Positions 1,164 to 10,790 of a stretch of 10,790 nucleotides of DNA are shown here, piece by piece (position 1 is the first letter of the stretch; every line of letters begins with the position of its first letter). The stretch spans positions 1 to 10,790 of the forward strand of contig JAJXYU010000039.1 of assembly GCA_021780395.1 (NCBI GenBank), read 5' to 3'. A program made the position numbers and the translations under genes. The stretch is from Pseudomonadota bacterium (GTDB taxonomy: Bacteria; Pseudomonadota; Gammaproteobacteria; Steroidobacterales; Steroidobacteraceae). The notes below the pieces were generated by a model. The model had not been told where the DNA came from, did not search any database, and was given only the letters and a program-made list of their open reading frames with translations.

Positions 1164-2714
1164 TCATCCGCCAGTCCCGTCCGCGGCGACCGGGGGATCG
1201 CCGAGTGCGGTAATCGCTGCGGTCAGCGCGCCGGTGTCGACCGGCTTGCCCAGGAACCGGCACGACCGGATCGGCGCCCTGACGCCCCGGAGCAGCGAAT
1301 CGAGGTCGCCGCTCAACAGGATCGCGGGCAGTTCCCAGCCGAGCGTTTCACGCAAGTGGTGCAGCAGGTCGATCCCGGTCATCTCGGCGCCGAGCCGATA
1401 ATCGGCGAGCAGCAGGTCGCCCGCGCGCAGCTGCGGGGCGAGCGCGAGCGCCTCGCCGGGAGACCCGGCGCTGAGGACCCGGTAACCCGCGACCGTCAGG
1501 AACAGTTCGGTCGCGGTACGGACCGAGGCATTGTCCTCGACCAGCAGCAGACGGCCCCGCGCCGCAGGATCGACGATCGTCGGGTCGAGTCCGGCGGGCG
1601 TCGCACCCGAACCTTCCGAGCGCAGGGCCTCGCGCGCGATGCGCACCACGACGTGGGTTCCCTCGCCGACGGTCGAGCGCACGATCACCTGATAGCCGAG
1701 GAGCCGGGCCACCTCGCGCACGATCGCGAGCCCGAGACCGACGCCGAGACGCGGCGCTCCGGCCCGGTCGACCTGATAATACTCGTCGAAGATGCGCTCG
1801 AGCTTGTCGGCCGGGATTCCGATCCCGGTGTCCTCGACGCCGATGTCGAGGTGTTGCGGATCGATCCGCGCCATGACCCGGACGCCGCCCCGCTCGGTGT
1901 ACTTCAGCGCATTGCCGATCAGGTTCTGCAACAACTGGGTGAACAGCAGGCGGTCGGTCGACAAGGTCGCGTCGGGTCGGGAGAACTCGAGGCGCAGCGC
2001 TTTCGCGGCTGCGACGGAGTCGAACTCGCGATGCAGGTCCGCGAACACGGAGGCGAGCGACACGTCGTCGAGCTGCGGCTTGATCGCCCCCGACTCCAGG
2101 CGGCTCACGTCGAGGAGCCCGTCCAGCAACCGCGTGGCCGCATCGATCGCGAGTTCCTCGCGGTGCAACAAATCCTCGATGTCCGGACAGCCGTTCGCGA
2201 GCCGGCGCATCGCGGCGTTCAGCAGCCGGATCGTTTGCATCGGCTGGCGCAGGTCGTGGCTCGCGGTCGCGAGGAAGCGACTCTTCGCGCGGTTCGCGCG
2301 CTCGGCCTCCGCTCGGGCCGCGACCAGTGCGTCCCGCACCGACCGCCGCTCGGTCGCGTCCCGAATCGCGGCCGCAACGTAGCGCTCTCCCTGCCACTCG
2401 AACGGCGCGAGGCGGATTCCCGCCGGGAACTCCGAGCCGTCCGCGCGGCGGGCGTAGAGGTCCGAGACCCGGCTCCCCATCTCCCGGCTCTGGGGATCCT
2501 GGTGGAACTCGGCCACGTGGTTCGCATGACGCTCGCGGAACCGTTCCGGCAGGAGCACGTCGAGGGACCGACCGACCAGGGCCTCGGGCGCATAGCCGAG
2601 CACGGCACGCGCCGTCTCGTTCGCAAATCGGATCACCCCGCGCGAATCGACGGCGATCAGCGCGTCCGGGCTGAAATGCAACAGCTGTCGTGACAGCGCG
2701 GCTATGTCACTCAT
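1164..2714 (-). CDS. PAS-containing hybrid sensor histidine kinase/response regulator
   Basis: A 516-aa soluble hybrid kinase with no membrane segment, so it should sense a cytoplasmic cue. A PAS domain covers about residues 5-122 (FSPDALIAVDSRGVIRFANE near the start). A linker helix (130-145) leads to the HisKA domain with the H-box FLATASHDLRQPMQ, phospho-acceptor H153. The HATPase domain has an N-box NLIGNALKY (N264/N268), G1 DTGIGIP (D295) and G2 GVGLGLAI (324-331). A receiver domain occupies about 385-503, with acidic pair E393/D394, phospho-acceptor D438, S468 and K490 (FLGKPVD). All catalytic residues are intact. The SHDLRQP subtype often pairs with FixJ/NarL-type regulators, and such a regulator lies just across the divergent promoter region. 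There is no HPt domain, so the receiver must pass phosphate to a separate histidine protein or act as a switch or sink. I see no clear Shine-Dalgarno before the ATG at 2714. The ligand is unknown. Confidence 0.92.
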   Translation of the reverse strand: MSDIAALSRQLLHFSPDALIAVDSRGVIRFANETARAVLGYAPEALVGRSLDVLLPERFRERHANHVAEFHQDPQSREMGSRVSDLYARRADGSEFPAGIRLAPFEWQGERYVAAAIRDATERRSVRDALVAARAEAERANRAKSRFLATASHDLRQPMQTIRLLNAAMRRLANGCPDIEDLLHREELAIDAATRLLDGLLDVSRLESGAIKPQLDDVSLASVFADLHREFDSVAAAKALRLEFSRPDATLSTDRLLFTQLLQNLIGNALKYTERGGVRVMARIDPQHLDIGVEDTGIGIPADKLERIFDEYYQVDRAGAPRLGVGLGLAIVREVARLLGYQVIVRSTVGEGTHVVVRIAREALRSEGSGATPAGLDPTIVDPAARGRLLLVEDNASVRTATELFLTVAGYRVLSAGSPGEALALAPQLRAGDLLLADYRLGAEMTGIDLLHHLRETLGWELPAILLSGDLDSLLRGVRAPIRSCRFLGKPVDTGALTAAITALGDPPVAADGTGG

Positions 2715-2987: not shown

Positions 2988-3740
2988 ATGGACAGTAAAC
3001 CGCCCGCGGCGGAGTCGGGCGCGATCCTCAACCAATTGATGGAGATCGCGCGGATCTCAGCGCTCGCCGAAATGGCGAGCGGGATCGCTCACGAGCTCAA
3101 TCAGCCGCTCGGCGCGATCGCGACCTTCGCACAAGCCGGGGAACGGATGCTGAACCGCGCCGACCCGCTGCTCGCACCCGCACTCGACGTGTTCCGGCAA
3201 ATCAGCCAGGAGGCGCTCGGGGCCGGCGCAGGCATCCGCCGGATCCGCAGCCTGTTCGAGTACGAACCGGCGACCCGCGAGACCTGCCGGATGCCGGAGG
3301 TGGTCGAGGAGTTGCGACCGGTGCTCGAGATGCTCGCGCTGCGCGCACACGGCACGCTCGAGATCACCGAGGCGCGACCCGGTCTGCCCGAGGTGCCGAT
3401 CGACCGCCTGAAGGTTCAACACGTGCTGTTCGCCCTGGTGCAGAACGCGTTCGACGCGTCGGTCGAGCACGCCGCCGAGGCGCAGCCGCGGGTACGGATC
3501 GTGGTGACCGGTGACCGCTACGCGGTCGAGACCAGCGTGTTCGACACCGGCGCGGGCATCGCGCCGCAGATCCGTGAACAGCTGTTCCGCCCGTTCTTCA
3601 CGACCAAGGCGCGCGGCACCGGGCTCGGTCTGGCGTCGAGCCGCGCGATCATCGAAGCCCATGAAGGTACGATAGGATTCGAATTGCACCCCCAGGACGG
3701 GAGCCGTTTCTGGTTCCGCCTGCCAGCCGCGGCCAACTGA
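2988..3740 (+). CDS. Sensorless histidine kinase (FixL/TtrS-type catalytic core)
   Basis: A 250-aa protein that is almost only a kinase core; about 20 residues precede the dimerisation helices and there is no PAS, GAF or membrane segment. The H-box is MASGIAHELNQPLGAI with H35 and adjacent acid E36, the LNQP subtype seen in FixL, TtrS and similar kinases. The HATPase part has N-box VQNAFDA (N153, D156), G1 DTGAGI (D186), F-box FRPFFTTK (200-207) and G2 GTGLGLA, all intact, so it should bind ATP and phosphorylate itself. AAGGTG at 2977-2982 is a good ribosome site 5 nt before the ATG. It is followed 12 nt later by a FixJ-type regulator, its probable partner. A second 250-aa protein at 9378 is its degenerate paralogue. 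Its input is unclear: it may need a partner sensor or an accessory protein. Confidence 0.9.
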   Translation: MDSKPPAAESGAILNQLMEIARISALAEMASGIAHELNQPLGAIATFAQAGERMLNRADPLLAPALDVFRQISQEALGAGAGIRRIRSLFEYEPATRETCRMPEVVEELRPVLEMLALRAHGTLEITEARPGLPEVPIDRLKVQHVLFALVQNAFDASVEHAAEAQPRVRIVVTGDRYAVETSVFDTGAGIAPQIREQLFRPFFTTKARGTGLGLASSRAIIEAHEGTIGFELHPQDGSRFWFRLPAAAN

Positions 3741-3752
3741 CGAGGAGTCGGG

Positions 3753-4382
3753 ATGACGAAACCCACGGAGACGCAGAACGCGAGGGGCACGATCTACGTG
3801 GTCGACGACGACGACGGCATGCGGCGCGCGCTGACGCTGCTGCTCGGCACGGTCGGTTTCGACACCCGCGCGTACGCCCGCCCGAGCGAGTTCCTCGCGA
3901 ACCTGAAGCCCGACGAGCCCGGCTGCCTCGTGCTCGACATCCGGATGCCTGAAATGAGCGGCCTGGAACTACAGCAGCAGCTGAACCAGACCGGGTGCAT
4001 GCTGCCGGTGATCTTCATCACGGGACACGGGGACGTGCCGATGGCGGTTCAGGCGATGAAGGCCGGCGCGTTCGAGTTCATCCAGAAGCCGTTCCGCGAA
4101 CAGGACCTGCTCGACAAGGTGAACCACGCGCTGCGCCACGATGCCGAGAACCGGCAGGATCTCGCGCGCCGCGCGGAAGTGCTGAAGCGGCTGGAAACCC
4201 TGACGCCGCGGGAACGCCAGGTCATGGATCTGGTGGTCGAGGGCGGTGCGAACAAGGTGATCGCGATCGATCTCGGCCTGAGCGAACGCACGGTCGAGAT
4301 CCACCGCGCGAAGGTCATGGACAAGATGGGTGCGCGTTCAGTCGCGCACCTGGTCAAACTGCACATGATGATCGCCGAGTGA
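3753..4382 (+). CDS. FixJ/NarL-type two-component response regulator
   Basis: A 209-aa transcription factor. The receiver spans about residues 13-128, with acidic patch D18-D21, phospho-acceptor D62 (VLDIRMPEMSG), T90 (VIFITGHGD) and K112 (FIQKPF). The ITGHGDVPMAVQAMKAGAFEF wording is typical of the FixJ/TtrR subgroup. A LuxR-type helix-turn-helix follows at about 147-206 (LTPRERQVMDLVVEG, then LSERTVEIHRAKVM). Everything needed for phosphorylation and DNA binding is present. GAGGAG at 3742-3747 sits 5 nt before the ATG and 2 nt after the upstream kinase stop, so the two genes should be co-transcribed and their products work together. Its regulon cannot be read from sequence. hemN lies downstream and FixJ-type regulators control microaerobic genes in some proteobacteria, but no binding site was identified there. 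Confidence 0.93.
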   Translation: MTKPTETQNARGTIYVVDDDDGMRRALTLLLGTVGFDTRAYARPSEFLANLKPDEPGCLVLDIRMPEMSGLELQQQLNQTGCMLPVIFITGHGDVPMAVQAMKAGAFEFIQKPFREQDLLDKVNHALRHDAENRQDLARRAEVLKRLETLTPRERQVMDLVVEGGANKVIAIDLGLSERTVEIHRAKVMDKMGARSVAHLVKLHMMIAE

Positions 4383-4640: not shown

Positions 4641-4682
4641 ACGGCGAGTATCCCCGGCGCGGTGGCGCGGGAGGCGGGCCGA

Positions 4683-6074
4683 ATGACGACCGACGTGCTG
4701 TTCGACGACGAATTGATGAGGCGTTACGATCGCGAGGGGCCGCGTTACACCTCGTATCCGACCGCGGTTCAGTTCCACGACGGCATCGGGCTGCCCGCGT
4801 ATGCGGAAGCCGCCGCGAGCAGCCCCGGCGCGCTCGCGAAAGCCCCGCTGTCCGTGTACGTGCACATTCCGTTCTGCCAGAGTCCCTGCTTCTATTGCGG
4901 TTGCAACAAGATCATCACCCGCCAGATGGACCAGGCGGACGCCTATCTGGAGCGCCTCGCGCGCGAGATCGAGCTGCGGAGCCGCCATTTCGACCGGACG
5001 CGCGAAGTCGAGCAGCTGCACTTCGGCGGCGGCACGCCGACGTTCCTGAGCCAGGACCGGCTGGCGTCGGTGATGAACGTGATCGACCGGCACTTCCGGC
5101 TGACGCGGGCAGCGACCCGCGACTATTCGATCGAGATCGATCCGCGTACGGTCGATCCGCCGCGCCTCGGGGCGCTGGTCGAACTCGGCTTCAACCGCGT
5201 GAGTCTCGGCGTCCAGGACTACGACCCCGAGGTCCAGCGCGCGATCAACCGATTCCAGCCGATCGACACCGTGACGCGCCTCGTCGATACCGCACGCGGG
5301 CTCGGCCTGCGATCGCTGAACTTCGACCTGATCTACGGCCTGCCGAAGCAAACGCCGCAGACCTTCGCCGCGACTCTCGACGCGGTCGTCGCCCAACGGC
5401 CGGACCGGCTTGCGGTCTACGGCTACGCCCACATGCCGCAGACCTTCAAGGCGCAGCGCAAGATCGTCGCGACCGACCTGCCGGGCCCGGCGGTGCGGCT
5501 CGAGTTGCTGAAGCTCGCGATCGACACGCTGACCGCCGCCGGATACCTGTACATCGGCATGGACCACTTCGCGCTGCCCGGCGATTCGCTCGCCCGTGCG
5601 CAGGCGAACGGCACGATGCACCGCACCTTCCAGGGATATACGACCCACGCGAGCCGTGATCTCGTGAGCCTCGGCGTGAGCGCGATCGGTCAGCTCGGCC
5701 GGCTCTACGTTCAGAACCAGAAAACGCTGTCGCTGTATTCGGCGATGCTCGACGAGGGACGTCTCCCGCTGCATCGCGGCGTTGCGATGACCGACGACGA
5801 TGTCGTGAGACGCGACGTGATCCATCGTATCATGTGCGACAACGCGATCGACGTCGATGCGGTCGAGCGGCGCTTCGGAATCGATTTCGACGACTATTTC
5901 GCGGACGAACTGCACCGACTCGACACCCTGGTCGACGACGGGCTCATCGAACGCGCCGCTCGTCGGATCGGGCTGACCCCCCGCGGACGCCTGCTGATGC
6001 GCAACGTCGCGATGGTCTTCGATGCGTACAAGAATGCCGGCGCCGGCGCGCCGCGTTTGTCACGAGTGATCTGA
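4683..6074 (+). CDS. hemN: Oxygen-independent coproporphyrinogen III oxidase (HemN)
   Basis: A radical-SAM enzyme that converts coproporphyrinogen III to protoporphyrinogen IX without oxygen, in cytoplasmic haem synthesis. From the ATG at 4683 it has 463 aa, matching the roughly 457-aa E. coli enzyme. The segment VYVHIPFCQSPCFYCGCNK carries the CxxxCxxCxC signature: C65, C69 and C72 for the 4Fe-4S cluster and C74 as the extra conserved cysteine. Y59 and H61 match conserved residues just before it. FGGGTPTFL (114-122) is the SAM-binding glycine motif, and the N-terminal RYTSYPTA is diagnostic of true HemN rather than HemW. A GTG at 4662 is in frame, but GGGAGG (4669-4674) is well spaced for the ATG at 4683. 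It converges on glpK with only 19 bp between stops. Its presence implies growth with little or no oxygen. Confidence 0.97.
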   Translation: MTTDVLFDDELMRRYDREGPRYTSYPTAVQFHDGIGLPAYAEAAASSPGALAKAPLSVYVHIPFCQSPCFYCGCNKIITRQMDQADAYLERLAREIELRSRHFDRTREVEQLHFGGGTPTFLSQDRLASVMNVIDRHFRLTRAATRDYSIEIDPRTVDPPRLGALVELGFNRVSLGVQDYDPEVQRAINRFQPIDTVTRLVDTARGLGLRSLNFDLIYGLPKQTPQTFAATLDAVVAQRPDRLAVYGYAHMPQTFKAQRKIVATDLPGPAVRLELLKLAIDTLTAAGYLYIGMDHFALPGDSLARAQANGTMHRTFQGYTTHASRDLVSLGVSAIGQLGRLYVQNQKTLSLYSAMLDEGRLPLHRGVAMTDDDVVRRDVIHRIMCDNAIDVDAVERRFGIDFDDYFADELHRLDTLVDDGLIERAARRIGLTPRGRLLMRNVAMVFDAYKNAGAGAPRLSRVI

Positions 6075-6093: not shown

Positions 6094-7593
6094 TCAGTCT
6101 ACCCAGCCGAGGGATCGATCCACCGCCTTCTTCCAGCCCGCGCACAGGGTCGCGCGGCGCGCGTCGGTCATCGTCGGCGCGAAGCGCTTCTCGAGCGTCA
6201 GCTCCGCCGCGAGATCCGCGCTGCTGCGCCAGTGACCGACCGCGAGGCCGGCCGCGAACGCGGCCCCGAGCGCGGTCGTCTCGACGGTCTTGGGGCGCAG
6301 CACGTCGATCCCGAGGATGTCGGCCTGGAATTGCATCAGGGTCTCGTTCACCGCCATGCCACCGTCGACCCGCAGTTCGGCGATCGCCGTGCCGGAATCG
6401 CTGCGCATCGCCTCGAGCACGTCGCGCGTCTGATACGCGGTCGCCTCGAGGGCCGCGCGGGCAAGGTGTCCGCGATTCGCAAAGCGGGTCAGTCCGGTGA
6501 TCACCCCGCGCGCATCGGGCCGCCAGTACGGGGCGTACAGCCCCGAGAAGGCCGGCACCATGTACACGTCGCCGTTGTCCTCGACCTCGCGCGCGAGCAC
6601 CTCGACGTCGGCGCTGCGCTCGATCAGTCCGAGGTTGTCCCGCAACCACTGAACGAGCGCACCCGCGATCGCGACCGAACCCTCGAGCGCGTACCGCGGC
6701 GCGTCCCGGCCGAATCGGTACGCGACCGTGGTGATCAGGCCGGCGCGCGAGCGCACCGGCCGCGTGCCGGTATGGGTCAGCAGGAAACAGCCGGTCCCGT
6801 AGGTGTTCTTGGTCGCACCGGGCTCGAAACACGCCTGCCCGACCAGCGCGGCCTGCTGATCCCCGAGGATTCCGGCGAGAGGAACGCCGGCGAGCGGGCC
6901 CCCGCTCACCACGCCGTAGGGCTCGCTGGAGGAGACGATCCGCGGGAGCGCCGCCCGCGGCACGTCGAACGCGCGCAGCAACTCCTCGTCCCAGTCCAGG
7001 GTCTCGAGATTCATCAACTGCGTACGGCTCGCATTGGTGACGTCGCTCACGTGCACGCCGCCGCGCGGCCCGCCGGTCAGGTGCCACACCAGCCAGGCGT
7101 CGATGGTTCCGACCAGCGCGTCCCCGGTCTGCGCGGCGGCGTGCGCGCCCGCGACCTCGGCGAACAACCACTCGACCTTCGGCGCGCTGAAATAGCTCGC
7201 GAGCGGCAGCCCGGTCTTCTCCCGGAACCGGTCATGGCCGCCGTCGGCCGCGTGGCGCGCCACCAGCGCATCGGCCCGGGTATCCTGCCAGACGAGCGCG
7301 TTGTGCAGCGGCCGACCGCTGTGTCGATCCCAGACGAGCACCGTCTCGCGTTGGTTCGTGATCCCGATCGCGGCCAGATCGGCCGCGCGCAATCCGGCGT
7401 GCGACAGCGCGTCCGCCGCGACCCGGCGGGTATTTTCGAGGATCTCGAGCGGATCGTGCTCGACCCAGCCCGGTCGCGGAAAGATCTGCGCATGCTCGCG
7501 CTGCGCCGACGCGATGGGGTTTCCGGCGCGATCGAACACGATGAACCGCGTGCTGGTGGTCCCTTGATCGATCGAACCGACGTACTGCGGCAT
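6094..7593 (-). CDS. glpK: Glycerol kinase
   Basis: A cytoplasmic FGGY-family kinase that phosphorylates glycerol to sn-glycerol 3-phosphate with ATP. From the ATG at 7593 it has 499 aa, against about 502 in E. coli. [10 protein letters not shown] (7-16) is the phosphate-binding start. Glycerol ligands R82, E83, Y134 and D245 appear in [17 protein letters not shown] and [17 protein letters not shown] and VDGGMAVNE (DGG) complete the ATPase fold. The frame extends upstream to 7644, but AGAGGA about 10 nt before the ATG and the [10 protein letters not shown] start support 7593. The loop before GDQQ is about two residues shorter than in E. coli and lacks its arginine, so fructose-1,6-bisphosphate inhibition may be absent. 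No glpF or glpD lies nearby. It could be a single-gene unit; the upstream 173 bp show no clear promoter. Confidence 0.97.
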
Positions 7594-7766
7594 GGCGACC
7601 CAGTCCTCTGCGACGCCGAACGGACGTCGACTCGATGATCGCACACGCCGCGAGCCCCCGGATATCCCGTAGCGTGCCGCGCCCGCTCCCGATGGCCGCC
7701 GACCACGTGACGGATTAGAGTGCGTCGAAGGGCTCGAACACGAGGACCCGCGGAGGACCGACGGCG

Positions 7767-9332
7767 ATGCGGGCGACGAGCGGCACCGAACCGGCCGACG
7801 CTGCGCCGCCCCCGTTCGCGGCGGCGGAACTGCTCGATCCGGCCGCGTATGCGCATCCGGTCGTGGCGGCGCGCGTGATCGAGACCAACACCTCGTGGGT
7901 CGTGTTGACGGGCGACTTCGCGTACAAGATCAAGAAGGCGGTGCGGCTCGAGTTCCTGGACGCGAGCACGCTCGCGCACCGACGCTTTCTGTGCGAGGAA
8001 GAGCGCCGCTTGAATGCCCGCCTGGCGCCCGAGCTCTACCTCGAGGTCGTGCCGATCGTGCGCGACGCGCGGGGAATCCGCGTCGGCGGCGCCGGCACGC
8101 CCATCGAGTACGCGGTGAAGATGCACCAGTTCGACGGTACGCAGGAACTCGCCGCGCTGCTCGAGCGCGGCGCGGTGGAAGCGTCCGAGATCGCCGGGCT
8201 CGCGCGCCGCGTCGCGCGCTTTCACGCGGATGCGGCGGTCGACGTCGGCCGTCCCGACGGCGTGAACACCACGCGAATGCGGTCCGCGGTCCTCGGCAAT
8301 CTCGCGACGCTGCTCGCCCACGTCGGTGCGGACGGAACGGCGCCGGAACTCGGCCGGCTGATCGACTGGACGCACGATCGGCTCGAGCGCGACGCGCGCC
8401 GGTTCCAGGAGCGCGAAGCCGCCGGTCATGTGCGCGAGTGCCACGGCGATCTGCACGCCCGCAACATCGTGCGCTGGCAGGGTCGTTTGATTCCGTTCGA
8501 CTGCCTGGAATTCGACCCGGCGCTGCGCTGGATCGACGTGATGAGCGACGCCGCGTTCCTGGTGATGGATCTCGTCGGAAGGTCGCGCCCCGATCTCGCC
8601 GCGACGTTCCTCGACGCTTATCTCGACGAGACCGGCGACTACGCCGGCGTCGCGCTGTTGCCGTTCTATGCGGTATACCGCGCGCTCGTCCGCGCGATGG
8701 TCGACACGCTCGCCGCGGAGGCACGAGCCGGCGGGCGGCGGGCCTTCACCGACCGCGCCCGCACGCGAATCGGGACTGCCGCGCGCTTCGCGAACCCGCC
8801 GCCGGCGGTGCTCGTCGCGATGCACGGACCGTCGGGTGCCGGGAAGTCCTGGCTCAGCGAGCGGCTGGTCCCGAGCCTCGGCGCGGTTCGAATTCGTTCC
8901 GACGTCGAGCGCAGGCGCCTCGCGGGCGATGCGCCCGCGGCCCACGATCCGCGCGCGGATGCACTCACCTACGAGCGGATGATCGAAGGGGCCCGCAGCT
9001 GCCTCGAAGGCGGCGTGGCCACGATCCTCGACGCGGCCAGCCTGCGCCGCACCGACCGCGATCGCTTCCGGGCGCTCGCCACGCGGGCCGGGGTCCCGCT
9101 GGTGATCCTCTCCTGCCGGGCCGAGCGACGGGTATTGACGGACCGCGTGGCCGCCCGACGACGCCTCGGGGCGGATGTGTCGGACGCGGATCTTCGCGTG
9201 CTCGACGCGCAACTCGCGACGATGGAGCCGTTCGGCGACGACGAGCGCGCCGACGTGATCGAGATCCAGACCGCCGAGCCCCGCGCGCTCGAGCGCGCGA
9301 TCGCGGTGATCGCCCGGATCCGCTCTAGGTAG
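7767..9332 (+). CDS. Fused aminoglycoside-phosphotransferase-like / P-loop kinase-like protein
   Basis: A 521-aa cytoplasmic protein with two kinase folds. The N-terminal half (about 25-330) is an APH-type small-molecule kinase fold. It has K55/K57 in [14 protein letters not shown], the catalytic loop [12 protein letters not shown] (D228, N233) and the metal site FDCLEFD (D245). The C-terminal part (about 345-520) is a P-loop NTPase of the gluconate-kinase/zeta-toxin-like type, with Walker A GPSGAGKS (354-361) and a later lid rich in arginine (459-467). This fusion corresponds to the widespread COG2187/COG0645 arrangement, whose substrate is not established; aminoglycoside resistance should not be assumed. 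GGAGGA at 7752-7757 gives a well-spaced start. The stop lies 45 nt before the degenerate kinase gene, so co-transcription is possible, although a -10-like TAGAAT overlaps its stop (9330-9335). Confidence 0.88.
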
Positions 9333-9377
9333 AATTCCCTGCTGCAGGACCGCGGACGGAGCGCGACGATTTCGTTC

Positions 9378-10130
9378 ATGACCAGGCAGCAAGCCGCACG
9401 GAGTCCGGCGACCGGAGAGGCGGCGTTCGCGGCCAGTCGGGTCGCGGACGCCGCCCGCAGCGCGGAACTCGAGGAGCTCGCGGCGTGGCTCGCGCACCAG
9501 ATGAACCAGCCGCTCGGCGCGATCGCCGCGTTCGCACAGGCCGGGAGCCGGATGCTCGCGGGACCGAACCCGTCGATCGAGCAGGCGGCCGCGCTATTTC
9601 GCGAGATCGCGCGTCTCGCGCTCGACGCGGGCGAGGACGTCAGCCGGATTCGCGCGCGACACACCGTCGAGGTCGCGCCCGCGAACCGATACCGGATCGC
9701 GGACCTGATCGACGCGATCGAACCGCCGCTGCGCCGGATCGCGGCACGCTATCACGGCCGACTCGAGATCGACGTAGGGCCCGAACTTCCCGAGATCCGG
9801 GTCGACCCGCCGCGCATCCAGTACGTCGTGATGAGCCTGGTCCGCAGCGGCTTCGCGGCCGCCGATCCCCGCCTCGTGACGCCGCACGTGCGCGTGGAGA
9901 CCCGTGCCGACGCCGACGCGGTCGTCACGAGCGTCTTCGACGACGGCGCGCATCCGGCGGCGGCGGATCACGACGCGTTCGATCCGTCGCTCGAGACGGC
10001 GGCGCCCCCGCTCGGCCTGAGCCTCGCGGCGAGCCGCTCGATCGTCGAGGCGCATTGCGGGACGATCGGCTTCGAGAAGCTCCACGGGGGCGGACGGACC
10101 TGGTTCCGGTTGCCGGCGGCCGAGCCCTAG
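9378..10130 (+). CDS. Degenerate histidine kinase paralogue (pseudokinase or phosphotransferase)
   Basis: A 250-aa protein, exactly as long as the kinase at 2988 and related along its whole length. AHQMNQPLGAIAAFAQAGSRML matches AHELNQPLGAIATFAQAGERML of the paralogue, with phospho-acceptor H40 kept. The C-terminus IVEAHCGTIGFE...WFRLPA also matches. The catalytic parts are ruined. The acid after the histidine is Q41. The N-box VQNAFDA reads VRSGFAA, so N becomes S157 and D becomes A160. G1 DTGAGI reads DDGAHP. The F-box FRPFFTTK reads FDPSLETA. G2 GTGLGL reads PLGLSL. The frame is intact with normal codon use, so the protein is probably made and selected. It should not bind ATP well. It resembles Spo0B or ChpT in design: a dimerisation/histidine domain plus a dead ATPase domain. 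The ribosome site is weak (GGAG 16 nt before the ATG). Its stop lies 13 bp from the convergent ATPase. Confidence 0.85.
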   Translation: MTRQQAARSPATGEAAFAASRVADAARSAELEELAAWLAHQMNQPLGAIAAFAQAGSRMLAGPNPSIEQAAALFREIARLALDAGEDVSRIRARHTVEVAPANRYRIADLIDAIEPPLRRIAARYHGRLEIDVGPELPEIRVDPPRIQYVVMSLVRSGFAAADPRLVTPHVRVETRADADAVVTSVFDDGAHPAAADHDAFDPSLETAAPPLGLSLAASRSIVEAHCGTIGFEKLHGGGRTWFRLPAAEP

Positions 10131-10143
10131 CGGGCCTGCGCCT

Positions 10144-10790
10144 TCAGGGCGTCGCGCGCCGGAACCACAGCGCCTTCAGCGCCTCGAGCACCGCGAACGA
10201 CGCGACGCCGACCGCGACGCCGAGTCCGGCGCCGCGCCAGCCGAGCGTCGCGAAATGAAACAAGTGCGCGGCCGGGGCCCAGCCGACCGCGACCGCGAGC
10301 ATCGCGATCACCGCGCCGAACAGCACCCACAGGAACCGGTTCGGGCGGCCCACGGCACTGCGGAAGGTCGTGCCGAAGCTGCGGTTCACCAGGATCAATG
10401 ACAGGTTCGCGACGACCAGCGAGACGAACACGATCGCGCGCAGGCGTTCGGCCACGATCCCGGCACGCGCGCCGATCACCAGCAGCGCGGCGAGCAGCAG
10501 GAACGCCACCGTCCCCTGGGCCACCGCCCAGAGCACGCGCCGCGGCCGCAGCAGCGGCTCGCGCGGATCCCGCGGAGGCCGGCGCATCACGTTCTCCTCC
10601 TCCGGCTCCGCTTCGAACACCAGCGAGCAGGCCGGATCGATGATCATCTCGAGGAATGCGATGTGGATCGGCGACAGCACGAGCGGCAAGCCGAGCAGCA
10701 GCGGCGTGAGCGCGAGCCCCGCGATCGGAATGTGCACCGCGACGATGTACTCGACCGCCTTCACCAGGTTGTCGTAGATCCGGCGACCGA
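10144..10790 (-). CDS. P-type cation-transporting ATPase, C-terminal membrane region (partial)
   Basis: The frame is open to the right edge of the window, so this is only the last 215 or so codons of a P-type ATPase. The first residues GRRIYDNLVKAVEYIVAVHIP are the hinge into membrane helix 5, as in P2-type (Ca/Mg-type) pumps. The helix-6 region follows, with LEMIIDPACSLVFEAEP carrying an acidic residue in the membrane. A charged cytoplasmic loop (EEENVMRRPPRDP) and four more hydrophobic helices (7-10) then lead to the basic C-terminus. The phosphorylation motif DKTG and the nucleotide-binding domain would lie beyond base 10790. The ion cannot be named: the helix-6 wording differs from classical Ca pumps. 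The protein is an inner-membrane transporter. Its gene converges on the degenerate kinase gene, with 13 bp between stops. Confidence 0.9.
   Translation of the reverse strand, partial: GRRIYDNLVKAVEYIVAVHIPIAGLALTPLLLGLPLVLSPIHIAFLEMIIDPACSLVFEAEPEEENVMRRPPRDPREPLLRPRRVLWAVAQGTVAFLLLAALLVIGARAGIVAERLRAIVFVSLVVANLSLILVNRSFGTTFRSAVGRPNRFLWVLFGAVIAMLAVAVGWAPAAHLFHFATLGWRGAGLGVAVGVASFAVLEALKALWFRRATP

Follow-up and report, generated by a model that had tools for sequence, protein, structure and literature searches.

A degenerate FixL-type histidine kinase core with a conserved receiver-docking helix: a possible antagonist of a FixJ-like regulator

The window examined here, a stretch of 10,790 nucleotides from a Steroidobacteraceae genome (2.93 Mb in 162 contigs), carries two paralogous histidine kinase cores of the FixL type. 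One of them, HK1, is intact. The other, degHK (9378..10130, + strand; 250 aa, identified from the ORF list, Pfam and the paralogue alignment), descends from such a core, has lost kinase residues, is maintained by selection and conserves the positions at which a receiver docks on its helical hairpin. The reading we favour, possible though still short of probable, is that degHK has given up kinase activity and now docks on the FixJ-like regulator encoded nearby, as a binding protein or a phosphatase; we infer its partner, the negative direction of its effect and its chemistry. A bifunctional histidine kinase can phosphorylate its partner and also take the phosphate off again, and in the HisKA proteins tested separate residues within a single helix serve the two activities (PMC3510030). 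The degHK clade, in which the kinase-only residues vary and the docking and phosphatase positions are fixed, thus provides a test of the evolutionary split of these activities into two proteins.

Gene neighbourhood and distribution in the genus

The gene order in the window is LysR regulator, hybrid PAS-kinase-receiver protein, HK1, FixJ-like regulator, HemN, GlpK, AAA_33, degHK and cation-transport ATPase, with the GlpK and cation-transport ATPase genes on the strand opposite to degHK. The hybrid kinase (1164..2714, - strand) has the domains PAS-HisKA-HATPase-receiver and is NahK/ErcS-like by profile matches; it is a possible phosphoryl donor. HK1 (2988..3740, + strand), assigned by Pfam, NCBIfam and alignment as the intact FixL-core paralogue of degHK, has no sensor domain detectable by profile search, so that its control may come from elsewhere. 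Its presumed partner, the FixJ-like response regulator (3753..4382, + strand), scores 249 bits, just below the FixJ cut-off of 255. The combination of a sensorless FixL-like core with a FixJ-like regulator (2988-4382) and a divergent NahK/ErcS-like hybrid is recurrent in many of the genus genomes examined. The HemN-type gene (4662..6074, + strand; Pfam Radical_SAM and HemN_C) is a possible target of the FixJ-like regulator, by analogy with a FixJ link that we draw from PMC7078487. Glycerol kinase occupies 6094-7644 of the window, and beyond the cation-transport ATPase lies a gene which, judged by eye, resembles glycerol-3-phosphate dehydrogenase (L043, 3880-5376).

Directly 5' of degHK is AAA_33, an APH-like kinase gene by Pfam (7767..9332, + strand). 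The spacer between the two genes (9333..9377, + strand) contains the conserved block GCGCGACGAT; its length of 45 nt is constant in G000, G006, G016 and G022, and the position of the ATG start of degHK is common to the same genomes. At the end of AAA_33 and in the spacer (9321-9377) the blocks TAGGTAGAAT and GCGCGACGAT are identical in four genomes. As TAGGTAGAAT resembles a -10 element, degHK may have its own promoter; a scan of 9200-10300 found no sigma-70 pairs. AAA_33 and degHK are in one frame in four genomes, separated by a stop and 15 open codons (9330-9377). A read-through fusion is possible, but the constant spacer would also fit an ordinary leader. An antisense ORF of 806 codons overlaps the start of degHK.

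A search of 23 genomes of the genus (E 1e-15) found full-length degHK beside AAA_33 in five (G000, G006, G016, G005 and G002), all of which also have HK1 and the FixJ-like gene. The copy in G022 is cut by the contig end; it was ruled out as an instance of decay, since the fragment ends where the contig does. AAA_33 adjoins degHK upstream in all six of these genomes, and also lies 5' of a C-terminal degHK remnant in G013, from which the His domain is gone (L050, 10009-10296). The function of degHK is thus dispensable in at least one lineage. In G013 a similar glycerol-3-phosphate-dehydrogenase-like gene adjoins the remnant and faces it. One further candidate, G009:C168, was set aside as an orthologue because an MreC-like frame is fused there, at an Ala-Pro repeat, to the last 40-odd residues of degHK; this contig (L047, 2074-3072) is probably a mis-joined assembly. 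No degenerate copy was found at this threshold in the other 15 genomes, some of which are incomplete, and in nine of these 15 no degHK remnants were found around AAA_33 (10 loci examined). In G020 one HK1-like copy is split in two pieces (L065, 6753-7447) and the other (L009) is intact.

Database proteins related to degHK are P0002-P0008, P0010, P0016, P0018, P0019 and P0031-P0034, some of them identical or almost identical to the genome copies; relatives of the gene lie in the metagenome-assembled genomes (Proteobacteria bacterium) DBS1-1.bin95, BP8.bin24 and ZJ5.bin5. The intact relatives P0048 and P0076 are annotated as Steroidobacteraceae. Because the protein searches scored the best ~8000 candidates each, the degenerate clade may exceed the 17 members described below.

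Sequence, predicted structure and selection

The degHK and HK1 proteins are identical at 105 of 246 positions (43%; E 1e-54), with identity of 81% in residues 40-60, 65% at the C-terminal end and 15-38% in the other regions. The original prediction, that degHK is a frame-intact degenerate kinase retaining H40 and the hairpin, is borne out by the 250-aa ORF, the alignment to HK1 and the structural model. H40, the phospho-acceptor position (codon 9495..9497, + strand), is followed by Asn at +3 and Gln at +4, as in intact relatives; the latter, Q44 (codon 9507..9509, + strand), occupies the position of the HisKA phosphatase residue, a role assigned by analogy (PMC3510030). At +1, the Glu of HK1 is replaced by Q41 (codon 9498..9500, + strand), and the N-box Asn of HK1 by S157 (codon 9846..9848, + strand). 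H192 replaces the second G1 Gly, Ala at 208 the lid Lys and P211 the first G2 Gly, and F204 is lost. The signature of an active FixL-type kinase (+1 acid, N-box Asn, second G1 Gly, lid Lys, first G2 Gly) is therefore absent from degHK. The E-to-Q and N-to-S changes, the G1 sequence DDGAHP and the G2 sequence PLGLSL had all been noted beforehand and are all present; of the F-box (DAFDPSLE), which had been described as lost, F204 is gone but F201 is kept.

When 13 signature sites are scored, 7 are missing from degHK and 6 are still in place (H40, Q44, D188, G190, F201 and G213). Alignment with the Pfam profiles, a check that had been proposed, gave HATPase_c 29.3 bits, which passes the cut-off of 26.4, and HisKA 18.3 bits against a cut-off of 26.9, which HK1 also fails to reach (26.4). 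The statement that nearly every ATP-site feature has been removed was thus too strong. All 45 intact relatives have the His, +1 Glu, +3 Asn, +4 Gln, N-box Asn, G1 Asp with both Gly, F201, F204, lid Lys and Gly 211 and 213. Of the relatives outside the degenerate clade, 115 of 117 keep all 13 sites and two lose one each (gaps not being scored as losses), whereas all 17 clade members lose at least two; the loss of sites is therefore more than chance. Chance or a misread frame is likewise ruled out by the orthologues of degHK, which are 250-254 aa long and 66-82% identical.

In the AlphaFold2 model the DHp hairpin (residues 21-95; 9438..9662, + strand; also covered by the weak HisKA match) is formed by two long helices, residues 10-60 and 67-95. 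The HATPase-fold (CA) domain (residues 102-250; 9681..10127, + strand) keeps its scaffold, and 9 of its 15 ten-residue blocks have pLDDT of at least 90. Mean pLDDT is 77.9 for the degHK monomer model and 80.6 for that of HK1. A lid helix is absent from the degHK model, whereas that of HK1 has a short helix at residues 193-196. The lid blocks 191-200 and 201-210 have mean pLDDT of 59 and 54 in degHK and of 77 and 56 in HK1; low order at 201-210 is thus no peculiarity of degHK, and the difference between the two lids lies in residues 191-200 and in the missing helix. FixL cores lead both fold comparisons among the best 50 matches listed in each, and neither ChpT nor Spo0B is among those matches.

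The degHK gene is under constraint, two- to three-fold looser in dN/dS than that on HK1. In the pairwise comparisons of G000, G006 and G016, whole-gene dN/dS is 0.43, 0.41 and 0.38 for degHK (bootstrap 95% limits together 0.25-0.62; 0 of 1000 bootstraps reach 1 in each of the three comparisons) and 0.14, 0.14 and 0.19 for HK1; the other six cluster genes compared range from 0.035 to 0.34. Absolute values are rough, given the simple codon method and high GC, and the comparison with HK1 within the same genomes is safer. Neutral simulations, with substitutions but no indels and a spectrum drawn from four-fold sites, which could be under selection too, gave a median dN/dS of 1.69 and a protein identity of 37%, against an observed identity of 73-77%. 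It is this departure in both measures from which we conclude constraint. The absence of stop codons, which had been offered as an argument for a retained function, is a weak one, since the open frame survived in 69% of 500 neutral simulations and the antisense ORF overlaps the start of the gene; dN/dS and protein identity make the case for a retained function instead.

The degenerate clade and the possible role of degHK

A single branch with support of 100/99 separates the 17 degenerate sequences from 45 intact ones. It was recovered in three trees, one of which included an outgroup (16 degenerate, 30 intact and 4 outgroup rows; branch support 100/99). Long branches were flagged for the G002 copy (P0033), P0008 and the G005 copy (P0031), whose placement inside the clade is unsure. 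The expectation that orthologues would conserve H40 and not the N-box is confirmed: 16 of the 17 clade members still have the His and 3 still have the N-box Asn, and both residues are present in all 45 intact sequences. The +1 acid, Glu in every intact sequence, is also kept in 3 members (another 3/17 have Arg at this position), the G1 Asp in 11, the second G1 Gly in 2 and the lid Lys in 2. The Gln at +4, invariant in the 45 intact sequences, and positions +6, +7, +8, +11, +12, +15 and +16 are kept in 17/17; according to PDB titles, +8, +11 and +15 are positions altered to rewire the docking of HK853. Over the 17 copies 33 columns are invariant, 12 of them within positions 44-60.

Fitch counts were made for columns that are invariant in the intact relatives. 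Each of 11 ATP-site columns changed 2-9 times within the clade, compared with 0-4 times for 8 other CA columns (Mann-Whitney p 0.0014 against the ATP-site columns) and 0-5 times for 15 helix-1 columns, 12 of which changed once or not at all (p 7e-5); these p values are to be read with the reservation that columns are not independent, that the ATP-site list was hand-chosen and that the tree was built with the same columns. The rank tests, on the larger set (17 vs 45), are stronger than the results on a smaller set, in which 0/11 ATP-site and 4/12 other CA columns were kept invariant (Fisher p 0.09) and a permutation across all CA columns gave 0.083.

The least degenerate members are not grouped together. 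P0034 and P0032, each short of 2/13 sites, cluster with P0031, which lacks 4. P0007 lacks 3/13 and joins P0033, where erosion is greatest (11 sites), in a group of modest support (91/75). As near-intact members nest among eroded ones, the losses were probably stepwise and parallel, and P0034, P0032 and P0007 allow their order to be traced. In P0034, Gln replaces H40, and the +1 Glu, N-box, G1, F-box, Lys and two G2 glycines are intact; this is a single protein from two contigs and could be an error.

This pattern of varying kinase residues, a near-constant His and a frozen +4 and docking surface fits a protein which docks a receiver and dephosphorylates or holds it. We suggest that degHK arose as a duplicate of HK1, and that it would no longer make phospho-histidine from ATP while retaining the part of the hairpin on which the FixJ-like receiver docks. 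It would then bind the FixJ-like regulator and either speed the loss of phosphate, through the invariant +4 Gln, or keep the regulator from HK1; output at genes such as hemN would be lowered or sharpened.

The chemistry supposed here has been dissected in other HisKA proteins. In alanine scanning the +1 acid was needed for kinase activity and dispensable for phosphatase activity, and the +4 Thr or Asn of the proteins tested was needed for phosphatase and not for kinase activity (PMC3510030). The His of CrdS is required for kinase activity and merely helps the phosphatase, so that CrdS without it is still a phosphatase: the half-life of CrdA~P is reported as 53.5 min alone and as 0.7, 2.6, 0.4 and 47.6 min with wild-type, H371A, E372A and N375A CrdS. 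The isolated DHp domains of NtrB and EnvZ are phosphatase-active, with activity greatly boosted by the CA domain (PMC3510030). Chimeras with the FixL module of B. japonicum can be net phosphatases on FixJ (PMC11164954). FixT is a receiver-type inhibitor of FixL whose loss in Caulobacter leads to porphyrin build-up, which makes a negative regulator near fixJ and hemN plausible (PMC7078487).

Several observations do not favour docking with phosphatase activity. Retention of H40 in 16/17 members is more than a pure phosphatase need would require, but in PleC the His is needed for kinase and phosphatase activity alike (PMC3510030). The residue at +4 is Gln in the clade and its intact relatives, where the tested HisKA proteins had Thr or Asn (PMC3510030), though FixL modules can still act as net phosphatases (PMC11164954). 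PhyP, once called a phosphatase, is reported to have shown no phosphatase activity on testing and to be a phosphotransferase and regulator trap (PMC5898713). At position +11 the 17 degenerate copies all have Ala, but 5 of 6 HK1s from the genomes with a whole or cut degHK have Thr. Measured against the remainder of the protein, the His box is also less tightly conserved among degenerate sequences than among intact ones. Since some 5 kb separate degHK from hk1-fixJ and the gene next to it encodes an unrelated kinase-like protein, its partner could be another receiver; the genome has 30 receiver-domain matches, 28 of them above the cut-off. More sweeping, and in our view doubtful, is the proposition that a natural FixL-type clade was converted, through repeated independent losses of different kinase parts, into specialised phosphatases or antagonists that dock on FixJ, while the docking helix and the +4 Gln stayed frozen throughout. 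If this is true, kinase activity has been discarded and the opposite activity retained.

A histidine phosphotransferase of the Spo0B, ChpT or PhyT kind, the first two being the models of the original prediction, is a rather unlikely alternative to docking and antagonism; here H40 would accept a phosphoryl group from a receiver such as the one in the hybrid kinase and hand it to the FixJ-like regulator or drain it backwards. In the HisKA kinases tested, ATP no longer drives phosphorylation once the +1 acid is lost (PMC3510030), so the His retained in 16 of 17 members suggests phosphate from an aspartate. The hybrid ends in a receiver and no HPt domain was found in it; the five HPt matches of the genome fall within two large open reading frames (1833 and 742 codons), and none is small and stand-alone. 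PhyT, with its degenerate ATPase domain, is a precedent (PMC5898713). However, P0034 is without the His and keeps the docking helix and most of the ATP site, and a relay needs no degHK, since the hybrid-HK1-FixJ set is present in G007 and G011, where no degHK was found. The fold model is nearest to FixL cores among the matches listed, which excludes nothing. The prediction holds as far as a degenerate paralogue under selection whose His box is conserved. Three findings speak against phospho-His being strictly needed: P0034 has Gln at H40, the His domain is gone in G013 and the invariant residue of the His box is the +4 Gln, at the position used for phosphatase activity in the HisKA proteins tested (PMC3510030). 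Loss of H40 among orthologues had been named in advance as evidence against the prediction, and one protein in 17, the possibly erroneous P0034, is of this kind.

We also consider unlikely the second reading raised in the original prediction, in which degHK is a pseudokinase that pairs with HK1 in heterodimers and, as a dominant modulator, dampens or biases HK1 autophosphorylation. In its favour, HK1 has no detected sensor domain and may be controlled from outside. Both hairpin helices are kept in the model, and there is precedent in ChrS: an inactive variant acts by way of HrrS, the paralogue that carries out the phosphotransfer, and the native ChrS and HrrS proteins form heterodimers, but for the truncated ChrS form the same source reports that no heterodimers were detected (PMC9491836). 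Moreover, outside residues 40-60 the hairpin of degHK is far from that of HK1 (32% identity before the His, 34% in the loop and helix 2), as though the surface used for dimerisation had since diverged.

Finally, it is improbable that degHK is a relaxed, slowly decaying duplicate without an important role: different clade members have lost different parts, its dN/dS exceeds that of HK1, G013 has a remnant only and 15/23 genomes have yielded no copy (remnants being sought in 9), but dN/dS is well below 1 in three comparisons, the length is held at 250-254 aa in P0002-P0006, the 45-nt spacer is fixed in four genomes and the invariant columns extend over all 17 copies.

Comparison with known degenerate kinases

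Degenerate kinases that act as regulators are already known, namely Spo0B, ChpT, PhyT, DivL and the ChrS variant; among the matches listed, we found no description of a FixL-type degenerate clade of this sort in the open-access literature. ChpT of Caulobacter has a dimeric His hairpin and a HATPase-like domain that makes no use of ATP (PMC3433190), and Spo0B of Bacillus is a dimeric phosphotransferase of possible kinase ancestry (PMC12826061). A His in a two-helix hairpin is likewise found in degHK and in 16 of 17 clade members, as supported by the model, P0034 being without the His. Phosphotransfer has been demonstrated for ChpT and Spo0B, whereas degHK is known here from sequence and model. 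The lid of ChpT is replaced by helical turns, unlike the helix-free lid of the degHK model, and degHK, with seven of the 13 signature sites lost, still has D188, G190, G213 and a HATPase_c match above the cut-off. The ChrS variant is a dead kinase acting on a paralogue or partner kinase (PMC9491836); it is a laboratory frameshift form, unlike the natural degHK.

DivL, likewise a catalytically dead kinase, is among the listed fold matches of degHK. In a repurposed Caulobacter kinase the catalytic domain reportedly reads the phosphorylation state of a regulator (PMC4211667). NifL acts on NifA (title of 9qq6) and has 14% sequence identity to degHK. FixT exerts negative feedback on FixLJ, and hemN lies beside the fixJ-like gene here, but FixT is a receiver-domain protein and no kinase relative (PMC7078487).

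PhyT (formerly PhyP) of Sphingomonas melonis resembles degHK in its degenerate ATPase domain and retained His. It sequesters its regulator and passes phosphate, retention of the regulator at the membrane depends on the His as well, and its motif is HRxxN, with Arg following the His as in 3/17 relatives of degHK (PMC5898713). The hairpins differ, however, since Pfam and NCBIfam assign degHK to HisKA, FixL type. That of PhyT is of the HisKA_2/HWE type, and PhyT is marked further by a membrane anchor and the phyR locus.

Compared with FixL, degHK is without a detected sensor domain, the +1 Glu, the N-box Asn, the second G1 Gly, the lid Lys and parts of G2. The FixL core and the chimeras YF1 and SB2F1 are nevertheless its best whole-length match in both sequence and fold among the matches listed, the FixL His box HxxNQPL with Gln at +4 is alike in degHK, and a FixJ-like regulator is encoded in the same cluster.
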